From the IMG/VR virus record IMGVR_UViG_3300025057_000035, positions 1 to 29,022 of that record: a stretch of 29,022 bases of DNA, one strand, 5' to 3'. The position numbers and the translations under genes were made by a program. Positions within the stretch are counted from its first letter, which is position 1. Every line of letters begins with the position of its first letter. Positions 3,156-22,788 of this stretch are shown in pieces. The notes under the pieces were generated by a model, which was given only the letters and a program-made list of their open reading frames with translations, had not been told where the DNA came from and made no database searches. The DNA is from a virus.

Positions 3156-3170
3156 TTCATAAGTTTTTAG

Positions 3171-3575
3171 TGGACCTGAGGGGAGTCGAACCCCCGTCCA
3201 GCGTAACATCAAATATACAAATTATACATGCTTAAAAATTAGGGCTGAATCTGGAATTCAACCTCCACCAGGGTAGTGATAACAGCTAAACCTACGGGTC
3301 TTTCAAGGATACTGTCACTCCAAATTTATACTCTCCTTATCCTTTTTCGAGTTAAATTTTACCCCTTTTCTGTTCCTAGGTAGGGATAACACCTGCTGCA
3401 TTACGCTACTGCTACTTCACGCTCTGCAACTACCATAGTTGAGATGAACTCTTCTACAGTAGTGTTAGATAAACTGTTTCCAGTTATTTGTTAATTTACG
3501 AGATTCAAGTCAGAGTAAATCAATCTGACTGCATGTTCATATACTCTCAGATACCTGTCAATTCCAGTCAGGCCC
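3171..3575 (-). ncRNA. ssrA: Transfer-messenger RNA (tmRNA) for trans-translation
   Basis: About 405 nt. The ends form a 7-bp tRNA-like acceptor stem: 5' GGGCCTG pairs with 3' CAGGTCC, followed by discriminator A and no encoded CCA. Just inside the 5' end is the tmRNA hallmark GACTGGAATTGACAGG. At the 3' end is a T-arm with loop TTCGACT. A long-range helix 2 is supported by ACATGC/GCATGT, and an 8-bp hairpin (GGTTGAAT/ATTCAGCC) fits a pseudoknot-domain stem. An open tag frame runs from about GGA AAC (resembling the Bacteroidetes resume site ACT-GGC-GAA) to GTA-GCG-TAA. The predicted tag begins GNSLSN and ends EVAVA, about 26 residues, long for a tmRNA tag. The mature 5' G coincides with the last base of the upstream TAG stop, so the RNA is probably cut out of the operon transcript. 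Confidence 0.9.
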
Positions 3576-3955
3576 TAAAATAGTTTCTTCTGTAAACTGG
3601 CTTCAAAGCCGTATAAGAAGATTTTCACATTTAATCCAGCTAAGTTAGCCAGATTTATCATGTGTTTTGTTCCTTTTGAACGTCCGTCCCAAAATACTAC
3701 CAATGCATCAGCATAGTCAGCCATTTGTTTGTTACGGATATATCCTGCAGATTTACCATGTTTATCCCAGTCTGCAGGAAACTGACGAAGGGGAATAGAA
3801 TGCTCTTTGGCAAACTTTTCCCCCAATCTATCAGCTCCTCTTGCAGTGCCTGAGACAATCTCACTTATCTCAGCAATATCGTAGTTATTTAACAATATAT
3901 GCTTAAGATGAGCATAGTCTGTAAAGTCTCTGCTACCTGCAATTATGAGTTTCAT
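3575..3955 (-). CDS. SLOG-domain protein, DUF2493/YspA-like
   Basis: 126 residues from the ATG at 3955. It opens with MKLIIAGSRDFTDY and has SGTARGADRLGEKFA and a final VVFWDGRSKGTKHMI strand-loop. These are the Rossmann-like nucleotide-binding features of the SLOG superfamily members named DUF2493/YspA. Members are thought to bind nucleotides or nucleotide-derived signals, and several sit in phage genomes. The substrate is unknown. The start codon overlaps the stop of the broken zinc-ribbon gene (ATGA). The last base of its TAG stop is the first base of the tmRNA. Confidence 0.85.
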   Translation of the reverse strand: MKLIIAGSRDFTDYAHLKHILLNNYDIAEISEIVSGTARGADRLGEKFAKEHSIPLRQFPADWDKHGKSAGYIRNKQMADYADALVVFWDGRSKGTKHMINLANLAGLNVKIFLYGFEASLQKKLF

Positions 3956-4068
3956 TCGAAAGGTATTGAATACTCTTGACAATAATTACAGATATTCATT
4001 CCTCCCACATCTGGAGTACCTGTTGGAACCTAGCCAACAGTGTATTCTTGACAATATGGACAAATCAT
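3952..4068 (-). pseudogene. Zinc-ribbon mini-protein interrupted by an in-frame TAG
   Basis: Frame of 38 sense-or-amber codons: MICPYCQEYTVG, then TAG at 4030-4032, then VPTGTPDVGGMNIC and NYCQEYSIPFE, TGA. Without the TAG it encodes two matched CxxC knuckles (CPYC and CNYC), each followed by QEY, as in a zinc ribbon. Its ATG overlaps the upstream stop (ATGA at 4065-4068) and its TGA overlaps the next start (ATGA at 3952-3955). Such exact fitting on both sides shows the whole 117 nt is, or recently was, one gene. The interruption may be a fresh nonsense mutation, a sequence error, or amber read-through. No amber-suppressor tRNA is present in this window. Confidence 0.7.
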
Positions 4069-4862: not shown

Positions 4863-4922
4863 TTATAACCAATTAGGTGGGTCGTGATTTTCTACATAAT
4901 TACATGGCATATCAATACACAT
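4863..4922 (-). CDS. Possible 19-residue micro-protein
   Basis: ATG TGT ... TTA TAA encodes MCIDMPCNYVENHDPPNWL. It starts inside the last codons of the metallophosphoesterase gene, overlapping by 11 nt, and stops one base before the transglycosylase ATG, so it fills the gap exactly. There is no other evidence; chance is not excluded. Confidence 0.35.
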   Translation of the reverse strand: MCIDMPCNYVENHDPPNWL

Positions 4923-5583
4923 TTGTATTGGCATCATGGTGGTCTACTTCGACTAATTCTTTATTACGAAGTAGTTCCATAATATGAGAATAGCTAATAG
5001 GACCATAATATCCAAATTGGTTGAAAATAGTATCAACTCCTACATCCATAGCTTTACGTTTGTAATAGTCTGGTGTAGTGTGATACATAGAATTGTGGCA
5101 ATGACCATGAAGATGTATCCATCCTTTCATATGACCATTCCACACAAAGAGTGGATAGTGACAAAGTACGAAATTATACTTCTTAGCTTTTTGTTGACGA
5201 CCATTAACAATTGGTTGAGCCTCTACAATTGTCAATTCAAGTAATTCATGAACTGATTTGAAAAGATGTTTATAGTGAGCTCTAATCCAATGGTCATGGT
5301 TTCCAAATACTAAATGCACATTTTTACATAGAATTCGGTCAAGAAAATGAGGAATCTGAGTCTTATCACCAAAAGCAAAGTCACCTAAATGAATAAGAGT
5401 GTCATTGGGTTGAACTCTTTTATTGATTTCCTCTAGAAGAAGAGTATTCATATACTCTAGATTTTCGTTCATATCACGCATACCACCCTTTTTCCACTTA
5501 CTGATACCTTTTACAATATTAGTATGGTTAAAATGAGTATCTGATGTAAACCAGATATTACCATCATTTGTATTTAATCGCAT
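4912..5583 (-). CDS. Calcineurin-like metallophosphoesterase
   Basis: 223 residues from the ATG at 5583; the frame is open further up, but the better start follows the kinase overlap. All five metal-site motifs are visible in order: SDTHFNH, HLGDFAFG, FGNHDHW, LCHYPLF and HGHCHNS. It should be a two-metal phosphomonoesterase or phosphodiesterase. The start overlaps the end of the polynucleotide kinase gene by 20 bp, and the RNA ligase is two genes upstream. That set (kinase, metallophosphatase, ligase) is the same as the three domains of bacterial Pnkp, so a 2',3' or 3' RNA phosphatase role in RNA repair is a reasonable inference. A general phage phosphoesterase remains possible. Confidence 0.88.
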   Translation of the reverse strand: MRLNTNDGNIWFTSDTHFNHTNIVKGISKWKKGGMRDMNENLEYMNTLLLEEINKRVQPNDTLIHLGDFAFGDKTQIPHFLDRILCKNVHLVFGNHDHWIRAHYKHLFKSVHELLELTIVEAQPIVNGRQQKAKKYNFVLCHYPLFVWNGHMKGWIHLHGHCHNSMYHTTPDYYKRKAMDVGVDTIFNQFGYYGPISYSHIMELLRNKELVEVDHHDANTNVY

Positions 5584-6037
5584 GAGGATTGTTTTGTAGC
5601 TTGTGATACATATCCAATTGTCTTTCAAGTATCTCTTTGCCTACCTTACGAATACGTAGGGTCTGACGCTCTAATAGAGTACCCATATCAGCATCGAAAT
5701 ACTTGTATTCCACATCAATTCCCTTATCTTTCAAGACATCATATCTTTTAAGGTATTTGAGTTTTAGATGTGTAGCATCAACAATGACTGTTTTGTTTAG
5801 ATTAAGAGAGCTGTGTATCAATATATTTTCATATATTGTAACTTCTTTCTCTCTTGCAGGAAAGTCATGTCGAAGGTAATACTCTTTAATGTTATCTTCA
5901 AGATAACCAAAGAGTAACTCGCGAATCTTGTCCCTATTGACAATAACAACATTGTTAGGGTCTTTTATATGGGCCTCATGAGCCCAGGTAGATTTACCTG
6001 AGCCCGAAGGTCCAATAAGTATGATTAACTTAGGCAT
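5564..6037 (-). CDS. pnk: 5' polynucleotide kinase, P-loop domain only
   Basis: 157 residues. The P-loop is GPSGSGKST (residues 9-17), followed by VNRDKIRELLFG, which matches the substrate-binding NRD element of T4 Pnk, then VDATHL and the lid-like RIRKVGKEILERQL. It should transfer the gamma phosphate of ATP to a 5'-OH RNA or DNA end. T4 Pnk is about twice as long and has a C-terminal HAD 3'-phosphatase; that domain is missing here, which fits a division of labour with the overlapping metallophosphoesterase. The start overlaps the upstream stop as TAATG. Confidence 0.88.
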   Translation of the reverse strand: MPKLIILIGPSGSGKSTWAHEAHIKDPNNVVIVNRDKIRELLFGYLEDNIKEYYLRHDFPAREKEVTIYENILIHSSLNLNKTVIVDATHLKLKYLKRYDVLKDKGIDVEYKYFDADMGTLLERQTLRIRKVGKEILERQLDMYHKLQNNPHAIKYK

Positions 6038-6432
6038 TATGACATTACGGTTTGTAACTGTTTTAAAACTTCTTTCAGATGTTTGTTATTATCATAGATA
6101 CCCATGAAGGCATCTTGAGAGATATTTTGTCGTTCAAAGAGATTCTTCACAATAAAAGAATCGCTAAAGAACCTAGATTTACATTGAGTAAGTACCTCTG
6201 CAAACTCACCATCTGAAGTCATAAGTGTACAAAGATAACCATCATTTGTCTTCTTTAGAAGAACATATGGATGATTGAAGATTGGATGCATAAATATATC
6301 ACCAACTTTGAATTGTTCAGGTGTACCAAGATGTTTATCTTTTGGAAGAGACTGTATCCAACGAAACAGTTCATCTCTTGTAGGTAAATTTTGCATCTCA
6401 CGCAATTTCTCTAATAGGTCATCACGTTTCAT
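6037..6432 (-). CDS. Hypothetical protein between RNA ligase and kinase
   Basis: 131 residues, no family recognised. The N-terminal 30 residues are helical and charged. The middle (QFKVGDIFMHPIFNHPYVLLKKTNDGYLCTLM) looks like a small beta barrel, and the C-terminus is helical. It overlaps the RNA ligase stop by 4 nt (ATGA) and the kinase start by 1 nt, so it is expressed with the RNA-repair enzymes. It could be an accessory factor, but nothing in the sequence shows a function. Confidence 0.7.
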   Translation of the reverse strand: MKRDDLLEKLREMQNLPTRDELFRWIQSLPKDKHLGTPEQFKVGDIFMHPIFNHPYVLLKKTNDGYLCTLMTSDGEFAEVLTQCKSRFFSDSFIVKNLFERQNISQDAFMGIYDNNKHLKEVLKQLQTVMS

Positions 6433-7736
6433 GCGGTATCCTCAATATTAGATTCTCCTGCATCAAGTTGTTTAGTCTCAAATTCAAGAAATTCAAAGCT
6501 TTTCAACTTATAAATCTCATATTCATAGAGTCTTTCAACTCTGAGACATATACCTTCAGCAGGAACCTTGTTGTTACACCTAAAACATCTTTCACCATTA
6601 GCATAGTCATCCTCTAAATTAGAGATGAATTTTTCATGCCAATACTCACCAGTATGCAGTTGAGGATATAAATCTCTCGCTTTACCTGTAAAATACCTGT
6701 AAGATGGATTCAATCTGTTTCTCAAACAGAACTCAACTATCTGTGGTGTAGACAACTCCATAACTACTCCATTTGGATTAGTATAAGTTATTCTATACAC
6801 TTCAAGTTTGTGTTCTCCTGGTCTGCAACCATAATCAAATGGTTTTTGAATGAAATTTCCTTCCTTATCATAGCCTATCATCTCTCCATAGAGAGTAAAG
6901 CCTTTAGGAATTTTGTATCCAATCTCATCTTTGATGTCTTTCCACAAATCATAGCCATAGAAGTGGTCTTGTCCCTTTGGGTCTTCGAACTGTTTATTCT
7001 TAACTACTCGTCTTGAACCATAGACCAAATCATACTCTTCTGTTTGTATCTTAACACCAAGATTAAGGAGTACTTTCTCAATCCAATTTAACTTCTTCTT
7101 TACTAGCACATTACTGACCCACCACGAGGTTCCATGTGTCTTATAGGTAATAGAGATAGTATCTGATGGCTTGATATTAGACATGTATTTTCTGAGATTA
7201 TCAGTATCTACATGTAAATGTACTTGTCCCTCAATCAGTCTTGACAGGGCTGGTTTTTTGCCTTTTTTGTTAGGTGGTCCATCATGTTTGTTGACCTTTT
7301 TGATGTATTTCTTGAGAAGCAACTTCTCATTGATAGTATCAAACTCAGTATTAACAAAATCTGATGGATTTTTATTGACACCAGCCCATTCAAATACATG
7401 ATTAGCTGGTACAATATATCCCATACTCCTCTCACCTCTGAGGCTCATGGCTTTGACTCTACAATGCTTTTCAAAGAACCCACCTTCATCTGGTTCTGTA
7501 TTGAGAGTCTTGTCTCTAAAACTATTAGTCTTAGAAAGAAAGTCTTTATTAATCTGACACTCCACAGGAAAGTATACATAGATATCTCCATCTTTTGCTT
7601 TCATGTCAGTGATTACATTTTGAAAGTCTATGAGACAGGTTTGTAGCCTATCTGCATTAGAATGTTTCTGTAATCCCTTTAGTTTAACAACCTTAGCTAA
7701 ATAGTTAGGGTTAAACTGGTCGCTTTTCTTGAGCAT
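6429..7736 (-). CDS. RNA ligase with N-terminal OB-like domain (DRB0094/Rnl5-like)
   Basis: 435 residues. Covalent nucleotidyltransferase motifs are visible: motif I KTHGTSWW with the AMP-accepting Lys199, a motif III/IIIa region GFTLYGEMIGYD, motif IV EGICLRVE (about residue 395) and motif V LKSFEF. The N-terminal 130 residues resemble the OB-like domain of the Deinococcus DRB0094 RNA ligase type, with HSNADRLQTC and VYFPVECQI. It seals RNA ends using ATP. A CxxC...C region (CFRCNN) sits between motifs III and IV. It heads the cluster with kinase and phosphoesterase, which suggests tRNA or other RNA repair after nuclease attack. Confidence 0.88.
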   Translation of the reverse strand: MLKKSDQFNPNYLAKVVKLKGLQKHSNADRLQTCLIDFQNVITDMKAKDGDIYVYFPVECQINKDFLSKTNSFRDKTLNTEPDEGGFFEKHCRVKAMSLRGERSMGYIVPANHVFEWAGVNKNPSDFVNTEFDTINEKLLLKKYIKKVNKHDGPPNKKGKKPALSRLIEGQVHLHVDTDNLRKYMSNIKPSDTISITYKTHGTSWWVSNVLVKKKLNWIEKVLLNLGVKIQTEEYDLVYGSRRVVKNKQFEDPKGQDHFYGYDLWKDIKDEIGYKIPKGFTLYGEMIGYDKEGNFIQKPFDYGCRPGEHKLEVYRITYTNPNGVVMELSTPQIVEFCLRNRLNPSYRYFTGKARDLYPQLHTGEYWHEKFISNLEDDYANGERCFRCNNKVPAEGICLRVERLYEYEIYKLKSFEFLEFETKQLDAGESNIEDTA

Positions 7737-8443: not shown

Positions 8444-8457
8444 TATTGTTTTTTTAG

Positions 8458-8543
8458 TGCAGGAGGAGGGAGTCGAACCCTCACGAACATTACTGCTCAC
8501 AGGATTTTAAGTCCTGCGTGTCTACCAATTCCACCACTCCTGC
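8458..8543 (-). tRNA. tRNA-Leu (anticodon UAA)
   Basis: 86 nt with acceptor GCAGGAG/CTCCTGC, D-arm GTGGAATTGGTAGACAC, anticodon arm CAGGA-CTTAAAA-TCCTG, a long class II variable arm and T-loop TTCGACT. No encoded CCA. It reads UUA, a common codon in this AT-rich genome. Confidence 0.95.
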
Positions 8544-8632: not shown

Positions 8633-8635
8633 TTG

Positions 8636-8709
8636 TACACCCAATAGGAGTCGAACCTATAACCTACAGCTTAGAAGGCTGTCGCTCTATCCAATTGAGC
8701 TATGAGTGT
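8636..8709 (-). tRNA. tRNA-Arg (anticodon UCU)
   Basis: 74 nt: acceptor ACACTCA/TGGGTGT, D-arm GCTC-loop-GAGC, anticodon arm ACAGC-CTTCTAA-GCTGT, T-arm ATAGG-TTCGACT-CCTAT, discriminator A, no encoded CCA. It reads AGA, the Arg codon favoured by AT-rich phages. Confidence 0.95.
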
Positions 8710-9228: not shown

Positions 9229-10707
9229 TTAAACCAAGGCTGCGACACGCTCCCTGATTTGGGTTAAAGTTGTTGGGTTGAAGAATAGTCCATCCTCATA
9301 GATTGTTTGGAGTTCCCCCTCTCTTTCTTCTAACCAACTTACTTGGTCTTTTAATACAAGACCATCAGCGGTTTTCACAACTTGAAGTAGTCCCTTGGCA
9401 CTCTTTTTAGTTCCGTCATCAGTAATAGGGTCTTTGTAGATTTCTCTACCAATTACTTTTCCCTCGGCATCTGTAATTTCTACATAAGTTGCTTTCATAG
9501 CAAAACCAAAAGTGTCACGAGTGTTGAACTGGTAAGTAAAGCTTCCTATGCCCAGTACCACGTTAGTACTTGCAAAGCCTTTCTGTTCCAACCGTTGACA
9601 TATTTCTTCAGCTCTTTCCAAGGTGATAGAGTCTCCATAGATTGCTCCAATCTTAGGATTTAGAACTTTGTATCCCTGCTCATTTACAGTTCCACCAAAT
9701 TCATCCCAAAGGAGTTCAATTACACCTTTGTGTTCAGGTAAAGTTTTCATGTCTTCTCGGTCATCCATTACAGTTCCACAAAGGATGTCAGCAGGATTAC
9801 CAGAATCAGGACGAATGACAATTTTACCATCTCTTGCAAGAATTTCATCATGTAATTCAGGCAAATAAGCTGTCAACACTTTCCACAAGTCCCATGTATC
9901 AGATACAATGGAGAGAATACCTTTAGGAAAGATAGACATAAGCCTACGAAATGTGTCAATTTCAGTTTCATGACCACCAGCACACATCACTGAGTGCTCG
10001 GTAGCATTTACTGAGTAAATCACTCCATCAGGTTCACGATAGTATTTTCTGGCGCCATGTATTGTTGGCAAACTATCAGAACCTAAGAAGCTTGTTGCAT
10101 GACCTAATCCTGAACTAATGACAGCTTCGAGGGAGTCCATGCCTCTCATAGAGAAATCATGTCCTTGAAAATCCACAAAGCCGACATTATCAGCATCGGT
10201 CTTGAGTGCCCATTTAGTGAGTACTTTCTTGAACTCAAGGGCAATTGTTGCGGATGTAATAGGTTTCCACAACAAGTTGGAGATTAAAGTCTCCAGGAAG
10301 TTTGTCAACCAGAAGAACTCTTCATAAGTATTCTTAATGGTTAACACGGGTACACCAATGGGACACAACGTTCCTTCTTCCAAGGCTTTCATTTCAATAG
10401 GGAGAAAACCTAAATCCCACAGGGCTTCGATATGAGAGACATCATAATCCATACCTAGGTACATGGAATACTCGTCTTTAATCTCATTACAGACTGCTCT
10501 TTTGGGTTGATTGAAGAAATCACGTTGAAAACCATCGTGTATTTGATGCATGACCATTTGGAGTCCAAAGACAACTACGCTGTCTATTCCATTTGGTGCA
10601 TACTTATTGCTTCGAGGTGTAAAGTTGGATACAACCAAACTTGTTCCCTCTGGATACATAGGCATGTGACCTGTTTTGTACCCATCAGTTCCTAAAAATG
10701 GATTCAT
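9229..10707 (-). CDS. nadV: Nicotinamide phosphoribosyltransferase family enzyme (NAMPT/NadV or Namat)
   Basis: 492 residues, the family's usual length. Signature blocks: GTDGYKTGHMPMYPEGT at the N-terminus, FVDFQGHDFSMRG, NATEHSVMCAGG with the active-site His, KIVIRPDSGNP for the phosphoribosyl site, and IYGDSITLERAEEI. Classical members make NMN from nicotinamide and PRPP. In the NARP1 phage pathway a homologue (Namat) joins nicotinamide directly to ADP-ribose pyrophosphate to give NAD+. The start overlaps the stop of the PRPP-synthetase family gene (ATGA). No NMN adenylyltransferase is seen in the window, which fits NARP1 but does not prove it. Which product is made cannot be read from motifs alone. 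Confidence 0.92.
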   Translation of the reverse strand: MNPFLGTDGYKTGHMPMYPEGTSLVVSNFTPRSNKYAPNGIDSVVVFGLQMVMHQIHDGFQRDFFNQPKRAVCNEIKDEYSMYLGMDYDVSHIEALWDLGFLPIEMKALEEGTLCPIGVPVLTIKNTYEEFFWLTNFLETLISNLLWKPITSATIALEFKKVLTKWALKTDADNVGFVDFQGHDFSMRGMDSLEAVISSGLGHATSFLGSDSLPTIHGARKYYREPDGVIYSVNATEHSVMCAGGHETEIDTFRRLMSIFPKGILSIVSDTWDLWKVLTAYLPELHDEILARDGKIVIRPDSGNPADILCGTVMDDREDMKTLPEHKGVIELLWDEFGGTVNEQGYKVLNPKIGAIYGDSITLERAEEICQRLEQKGFASTNVVLGIGSFTYQFNTRDTFGFAMKATYVEITDAEGKVIGREIYKDPITDDGTKKSAKGLLQVVKTADGLVLKDQVSWLEEREGELQTIYEDGLFFNPTTLTQIRERVAALV

Positions 10708-11612
10708 CTGTTATCAGGGTTAAAAAGTTCAATTACATTCAAATTATCAGGCTTTTCCTCAATAGTACCATCCTCATCAACAACATGCATATAGTAATCA
10801 TATGTGCTATTGGTGGTGTATACTCTATCAAAGTAACGTACTACTGAATCTTTACCTAAGTTTTGTACAGTCATATGACTGACAGCCAGGAATAATCTTC
10901 CTGCATTTCTCTCTCGTAATAATTTGGCTAAACCTTTAAAGGTTCCACCATATACGCAAATATCATCAACAATGAGTACATCCTTACCCTTAAAGTCATT
11001 GACTGAAAGAATTTGATGTAACTTACCATCTACACGAGATTTAGACGCAGAGTGAACCTTACCTCCCCATCTTAGCCTTTTAACTGTATCCATAAGAGGC
11101 TTATAACCTCCTGCATCAGCAGCTAAAAGATGAACAAGAGGATACAGTCTTTCATTTACAGTTGTAATATAATGGTCATGTACCCACTCTGCAGGTAAAT
11201 GATATACATTTATTGCTAAGTCTTGAAGTACTTTCTCAATGAAAGTATAATTCTTTAAGATTGCGACATTATTCAAACCCATTTCCACTGCTTGAGGATT
11301 GTGTGGATGATAAATAACATAAATATCTACATCTAAAGAATTAAGAAAATCAAGAACTATCTTGAGACTATAAGAATACCGCCCAAATCTTGAGTCAGCC
11401 TGTGCATCAATAAGACGAGGAAGAGTTACCTGTAGCTTTCTACGATTCATTGAATCATATTGTCTAAAAGCATCAACATACTGTGCTAATTGCCACAGTT
11501 GTTCATAGTTTTGGATGCGCCATACTATCTCTGATTTTTTAGCATCATCAGTTCTGAAATAAGATGTACCATCAGGATAATTGTGCATCAATATAGGTTT
11601 ATCACTCATCAT
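10704..11612 (-). CDS. prs: PRPP synthetase family enzyme (Prs or NARP1 Adps)
   Basis: 302 residues; start at the ATG of 11612 or the adjacent ATG at 11609. Family landmarks: YPDGTSYFR (canonical F-x-DGE), RLIDAQADSRFG, HPHNPQAVE in place of the usual DLH-x-x-Q, AADAGGYKPL and the PRPP loop LIVDDICVYGGT (213-224). Classical Prs makes PRPP from ribose 5-phosphate and ATP. In NARP1 the Prs-like Adps pyrophosphorylates ADP-ribose instead. The altered DLH and DGE elements show divergence from housekeeping Prs. It is coupled to the NAMPT-family gene by a 4-nt overlap and overlaps the upstream secreted-protein gene by 11 nt. Confidence 0.88.
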   Translation of the reverse strand: MMSDKPILMHNYPDGTSYFRTDDAKKSEIVWRIQNYEQLWQLAQYVDAFRQYDSMNRRKLQVTLPRLIDAQADSRFGRYSYSLKIVLDFLNSLDVDIYVIYHPHNPQAVEMGLNNVAILKNYTFIEKVLQDLAINVYHLPAEWVHDHYITTVNERLYPLVHLLAADAGGYKPLMDTVKRLRWGGKVHSASKSRVDGKLHQILSVNDFKGKDVLIVDDICVYGGTFKGLAKLLRERNAGRLFLAVSHMTVQNLGKDSVVRYFDRVYTTNSTYDYYMHVVDEDGTIEEKPDNLNVIELFNPDNR

Positions 11613-11991
11613 CTTCTTCTTTACAAGCTATAAACTTGAATTGTAAGTTACATTCATTGTTGGCTAATACACACTTGTACGGTGAAATGAAAAGTTTCAC
11701 CTGTGTATCATTTGGGGCTGTACCTTTTAGAATAAAATATTCATCTTTAAAGCTGAACATCTTATCTAATGTGTACACTCGTTGTTCACCATTAAAATAT
11801 AGTGTAAAACTGTCTAAGTCCACACTCAGAGTTATTGAAGCTGGTTGTGCTGGTGAACAAGTATCTACACATGATGATTTAACATTAGAGTTAAAACAAA
11901 ATGCAGTACTATCATAATCGTATTGTACGATTTGAGAAAAGCTAGTCCATGTAAAGCAGGACAATAGTAGGGTGAAGAAAAATGCTTTCAT
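11602..11991 (-). CDS. Secreted Cys-containing protein of unknown function
   Basis: 129 residues with a signal peptide (MKAFFFTLLLSCFTWTSFS, probable cleavage before Q). The mature part has six Cys (AFCFN, SSCVDTC, YKCVLANNEC, IACKE) that could form disulfides, and a beta-rich middle. No family recognised. The last codons overlap the PRPP-synthetase family start, so it is co-expressed with the NAD pair, though no functional link is visible. Confidence 0.7.
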   Translation of the reverse strand: MKAFFFTLLLSCFTWTSFSQIVQYDYDSTAFCFNSNVKSSCVDTCSPAQPASITLSVDLDSFTLYFNGEQRVYTLDKMFSFKDEYFILKGTAPNDTQVKLFISPYKCVLANNECNLQFKFIACKEEDDE

Positions 11992-22705: not shown

Positions 22706-22775
22706 TGCGGGGAGAATGAGTATTCCAGCTGGTCTCATAAGCCAGCCTCCGTGGGTGCGACTCCCACCTCCGCAA
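22706..22775 (+). tRNA. Unusual tRNA-like gene with CAU anticodon
   Basis: 70 nt: acceptor TGCGGGG/CTCCGCA, discriminator A, anticodon arm CTGGT-CTCATAA-GCCAG with CAU, T-arm GTGGG-TGCGACT-CCCAC. The D-arm is minimal (GAAT-GAGT-ATTC) and lacks the GG of a normal D-loop, and the T-loop has G in place of T at the second position. It would read AUG (Met) or AUA if modified. It may be a working odd tRNA, a decaying one, or a tRNA mimic used as a processing signal. Confidence 0.7.
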
Positions 22776-22788
22776 CTAAAGAAAACAA

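Follow-up and report, generated by a model that had tools for sequence, protein, structure and literature searches.

The two genes at positions 9,229 to 11,612 of the window, as the 29,022-nt stretch of viral DNA analysed here is called, very probably constitute a phage NARP1 operon, a known system that in this virus appears to include a distinct branch of Adps. The pathway itself is already known, and rebuilds NAD+ from the leftovers of bacterial suicide defences. According to the predicted scheme, Adps would transfer pyrophosphate from ATP to the free C1 of ADP-ribose, yielding ADPR-PP, and Namat would join nicotinamide to ADPR-PP to give NAD+ directly, without an NMN adenylyltransferase; in this way NAD+ would be refilled after a TIR, SIR2 or SEFIR effector of the host had cut it into ADP-ribose and nicotinamide. 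We infer the substrates, the products (ADPR-PP and NAD+), the timing and the counter-defence role of the pair from sequence.

Both genes lie on the minus strand. The Adps-like gene (10704-11612) encodes a 302-residue PRPP-synthetase homologue of the clade named here HPHN, a predicted ADP-ribose pyrophosphokinase, and the Namat-like gene (9229-10707) encodes a predicted nicotinamide ADP-ribose transferase of 492 residues. As described in the first-pass annotation, the two open reading frames overlap by 4 nt, sharing an ATGA at 10704-10707, and are followed by a strong terminator, recovered here as a Rho-independent hairpin at 9220-9197 (minus strand), in which a stem of 10 pairs closes a loop of 4 nt and a T-rich tail follows. 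Its RNA folds at -18 kcal/mol (z = -3.7), a stability equalled by none of 200 shuffles. The assignment of the proteins to the NAMPT and PRPP-synthetase families also holds, since the former matches PHROG 448, nicotinamide phosphoribosyl transferase (E 6e-188), with the Pfam domains NAPRTase and NAMPT_N, and the latter PHROG 619, ribose-phosphate pyrophosphokinase (E 1e-31), with the domain Pribosyltran. A small gene on the same strand (11602-11991, 129 residues), with a signal-peptide-like start and no match in a PHROG search, overlaps the Adps-like gene by 11 nt, and therefore the pair is probably the tail of a longer transcription unit in which this small gene is included.

The 29-kb virus record is probably a fragment of a genome. 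An IMG/VR record of 65,765 bp (L002/G001) is 100% identical to the window over the 9,001 nt tested, and for this reason it is regarded as a longer copy of the same virus; it was used to widen the search for an NMN adenylyltransferase, the virus genome being still incomplete. The terminase is about 34% identical to terminases of Flavobacterium phages, with crAss-like phages also in the match list, and the head protein, the portal and the terminase match small head-and-packaging PHROGs. Based on these matches the virus, which is uncultured, is probably a Bacteroidota phage related to the crAss-like group. Among phage records, the search for relatives at the nucleotide level returned tRNA matches only. 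The window carries a tRNA-Leu (8457-8543, minus strand), a tRNA-Arg (8635-8709, minus strand) and a tRNA-Met (22706-22776, plus strand), the first two being confirmed by Rfam at its threshold and the last not. A full-length phage tmRNA missed by ARAGORN is located at 3168-3575 (minus strand; Rfam RF00023, 78.1 bits against a gathering threshold of 47); its acceptor stem pairs well, and we read its tag as GNSLSNTTVEEFISTMVVAEREVAVA, followed by UAA. Neither the window nor the longer copy yielded an SmpB.

The Namat-like protein is 52.5% identical to the Namat of Bacillus phage SPbetaL1, and its closest solved structures are PDB 9w5x and 9w5w, which we read, by the fit of numbering and sequence, as those of the SPbetaL1 Namat solved in PMC12774641. 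According to that work a clamp helix distinguishes Namat from NAMPT, with the consensus GSX-Phi-X-Phi-X-Phi-TRD, in which aromatic residues at positions 3 and 7 touch the adenine (PMC12774641). Tested as GSX-S/T-X-Q/N-X-N/V-TRD plus aromatics at positions 3 and 7, the published consensus is found in the window protein as GSFTYQFNTRD (residues 388-398; 9514-9546, minus strand), and is absent from the NAMPTs of phages LucasX, Moby and Muenster and from Xcc and mammalian NAMPT. An adenylyltransferase gene (NadM/NMNAT) adjoins or is near the NAMPT gene in LucasX, Moby and Muenster. The ligand-contact positions compared are identical to those of the SPbetaL1 Namat in 11 cases out of 12, the exception being A362, where S is found, and the NAMPT catalytic core is kept, including the equivalents of SPbetaL1 F189, D215 and R306 and the histidine of the TEHS motif (H238; codon at 9994-9996, minus strand). 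This residue is equivalent to the catalytic histidine of NAMPT, which becomes phosphorylated. Within the clamp-loop region (residues 28-42, NFTPRSNKYAPNGID; 10582-10626, minus strand), K35-Y36 is found where SPbetaL1 has R40, which contributes to adenine stacking and aligns with K35; the authors themselves describe this loop as variable (PMC12774641). In a quick tree, several branches of which are long, six NAMPTs are separated from 54 Namat-type proteins with an SH-aLRT of 100, and the window protein is placed with the Namats.

An AlphaFold2 model of the Adps-like protein was obtained with a pLDDT of 90, and its best solved matches are all PRPP synthetases (Z about 22), far over other phosphoribosyltransferases (about 11), so the predicted fold is that of Prs. 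A PADLOC match to ShosT (E 4e-6), covering 33 residues just past the start of the phosphoribosyltransferase loop, was taken as a sign of shared family only. In a tree built with more care, in which long branches are also present, six cellular Prs are separated from 53 phage sequences with a support of 100/99, and the query lies on a long branch among the latter, which include the SPbetaL1 Adps and the FelixO1 protein. Phylogenies of both proteins had been proposed in the first-pass annotation, and they set the pair with phage Adps and Namats, apart from cellular Prs and from NAMPTs. The Adps-like protein is only 24-32% identical to the SPbetaL1 and FelixO1 proteins, and E. coli Prs, at 27%, is about as distant. 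The position of E. coli R99 is occupied by Ser in the query alone and, given also its long branch, this Adps may be drifting or specialised.

The catalytic set is preserved, H104, D166, K191, R193, D216, D217 and T224 being the counterparts of E. coli H131, D170, K194, R196, D220, D221 and T228. The residues of E. coli Prs that bind ribose 5-phosphate are D170, D220, D221, T225 and T228; in human PRPS2, T225 and T228 hold the phosphate of this site together with the G227 backbone. In the ribose-phosphate loop of the window protein (DDICVYGGT, residues 216-224; 10941-10967, minus strand) Thr225 is replaced by Tyr221, and Thr228 is kept as T224. The equivalent of Thr225 is lost in all 71 phage Adps-like sequences, with G, Y, F, N or A in its place, and the position is T or S in E. 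coli Prs, in five other cellular Prs and in 80 further bacterial Prs, all of them proteobacterial as far as titles tell. A phage Prs-like gene in MT836344 keeps Ser at 225, and its 10.7-kb record has no Namat. We infer that the loss of the Thr225 hydroxyl fits a substrate in which the 5'-phosphate is non-terminal and bears AMP. As this loss occurs in every phage Adps and in no cellular Prs compared, it provides a simple testable hypothesis for the selectivity of Adps, which is stated to be obscure, the structure of the enzyme being not yet solved (PMC12774641). The first-pass annotation had instead stressed departures from housekeeping Prs at the DLH (HPHNPQ) and DGE (YPDGT) sites; these are real, but they do not by themselves indicate an Adps, because the Prs of Sphingopyxis and Criblamydia read FPDGE and DPH.

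The HPHN site (residues 102-105; 11298-11309, minus strand), in which D129-L130-H131 of E. coli Prs become H102-P103-H104, is the mark of a clade of 26 sequences (support 100/100) that includes the query, where HPHN replaces DLHA and the members are 39-53% identical to the query. This clade was met only in metagenomic viruses, and no characterised or isolate member of the branch was found; phage records reach at most 77 bits among the matches listed for the query, and two peptide patterns, which could miss distant copies, detected no HPHN Adps in 84,980 bacterial genomes. The replacements of R96 by Q and of D129 by H (E. coli numbering) occur together in 28 of 28 sequences, comprising the clade and two near-neighbour sequences, and in none of the 31 others, which retain R96 and have D, E or L at position 129. 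This count includes shared descent, and the two changes may represent one coupled event. The branch would be a modest novelty, namely an Adps clade with two ATP-site positions apparently changed together. A bolder proposal, which we consider rather unlikely, is that the HPHN Adps would still pyrophosphorylate ADP-ribose but would be biochemically distinct, its ATP/metal site having been rewired by the coupled changes at R96 and D129 and its donor, metal or regulation perhaps being different, and that it would have displaced the ordinary Adps beside several Namat lineages of environmental phages. Somewhat less likely again is an explanation that overlaps with the NARP1 reading, in which the chemistry of the HPHN enzyme would be altered in its pyrophosphate donor, its metal or its nucleotide-ribose acceptor and Namat would still act as the ligase. 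The joint change at R96 and D129, the monophyly of the clade and its distance from the phage records listed point in that direction; nevertheless, both aspartates of the loop remain, as do H131, K194 and R196, the clamp of the partner Namat is unchanged, and the coupling may be a single event inherited by all members. The same features weigh to some extent on NARP1 itself, since this putative Adps is far from those of SPbetaL1 and FelixO1, sits on a long branch and has ATP-site changes absent from every assayed Adps.

Concerning the remaining step of classical salvage, neither the window nor the 65.8-kb copy of this incomplete genome gave a match to CTP_transf_like (PF01467) at E<=10. Of 18 other relatives, which nearly all share this Adps type, 17 had no NMNAT-type domain scoring above the cut-off, and in the other one (G009) an NMNAT-domain match lies inside a 974-aa frame. 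The lack of an NMN adenylyltransferase gene noted in the first-pass annotation thus extends to the longer copy, but as an argument it is weaker than was stated, given that bacterial hosts carry their own NMN adenylyltransferases. The missing phage enzyme is only consistent with NARP1, and not decisive, because the host enzyme could serve. Indeed, in classical nicotinamide salvage the Prs-like protein would produce PRPP, the NAMPT-like protein would produce NMN and the host adenylyltransferase would complete NAD+, a phage copy being needless. Because the SPbetaL1 Namat retains PRPP-dependent NMN synthesis from nicotinamide in vitro, at about half of the activity of human NAMPT (PMC12774641), sequence cannot tell which Namat reaction dominates. 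Still, we hold classical salvage to be quite improbable: the Namat-specific clamp motif is present in the window protein, the clamp-less NAMPTs of LucasX, Moby and Muenster fall in another clade, and T225 is lost from the ribose-phosphate loop. The preference for NARP1 previously expressed is supported by the clamp motif, both trees, the linkage of the two genes, the loss of the Thr225 equivalent and the lack of an NMNAT-type domain in 65.8 kb. A nucleotide-metabolism module supplying extra PRPP for nucleotide synthesis, with no link to defence, is extremely improbable, for although the same virus encodes a ribonucleotide reductase, the Namat-type ligase is constantly paired and T225 is lost.

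Under the NARP1 reading the two enzymes would act in sequence, and their genes are seen together in about 100 loci. An Adps-like gene is present in 69 of 80 Namat loci on viral contigs, the remaining 11 records running out less than 4 kb upstream of their Namat. Each of the 27 HPHN Adps loci has a Namat within about 3 kb, and six of these loci are on contigs of the 80-locus set. The HPHN Adps form one clade and their Namats do not, a one-clade constraint on the latter being rejected (AU p = 0.0034, in a test that used the quick tree and was run after the first tree had been seen); this disagreement between the two trees suggests that Adps and Namat may have swapped partners from one operon to another. 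In the relative whose Adps is the query's nearest neighbour in the tree, the Namat (L112:12324-13947) is divided between two open reading frames, either genuinely or through faulty assembly. No conserved third gene was recognised: homologues of the SLOG, kinase and upstream small genes of the window are missing from the other loci, and the only often-recurring neighbour is a calcineurin-like phosphoesterase (25 loci, raw count). In the window such a phosphoesterase (4912-5628, minus strand) is found close to the pair together with a polynucleotide-kinase-like gene (5564-6037) and an RNA ligase (6429-7736), and these three could possibly be a set for repairing RNA or tRNA alongside the repair of NAD+; NiceHouse, PaoP5 and phi 3 also have an RNA ligase annotated in the vicinity of the pair. 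The SLOG-family protein (3575-3982, minus strand) corresponds to YAcAr (Pfam PF10686, E 5.5e-15), and genes resembling DprA have been annotated in PaoP5 and KLB3 close to their NAMPT-family genes. In the longer copy, COOH-NH2 ligase, glutamine amidotransferase and amidoligase genes are clustered (L140:8967-14759).

Compared with the NARP1 system of SPbetaL1 (PMC12774641), the window pair shows the same two overlapping genes in equal order and keeps the catalytic residues, and its clamp-helix motif differs at one residue only (SPbetaL1 Y396 is F394 in the window). In contrast, the Adps proteins are just 24% identical, R96 is replaced by Q and D/E129 by H (E. coli numbering), and the clamp-loop R40 is K35. 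Salmonella phage FelixO1 likewise combines a Prs-like protein with a Namat-type NadV, with the clamp GSYTYQYMTRD and a clamp loop, SDKW, that parallels SNKY of the window; however, its Namat is 46% and its Adps 31.5% identical, and its two genes are separated by an HNH gene. In the crAss-like phage Kolpuevirus 'frurule' (OQ198718) the genes are adjacent, the clamp reads GSFTYQFKSRD and the Adps is 33% identical, but the gene order is reversed and the Adps has EPHS with R96, as ordinary Adps do. The NARP2-type salvage systems of LucasX, Moby and Muenster (NAMPT with NadM/NMNAT-Nudix) share the NAMPT family and its catalytic core, whereas their NAMPT has no Namat clamp, their partner is an NMN adenylyltransferase and no Adps is present in the stretch examined. 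With E. coli Prs, the Adps-like protein shares the predicted fold and the catalytic residues listed above, and it differs in that T225, R96, D129 and L130 are all changed. This pair would thus add an environmental crAss-like-related phage to the carriers of NARP1, and defines a new branch of putative Adps.
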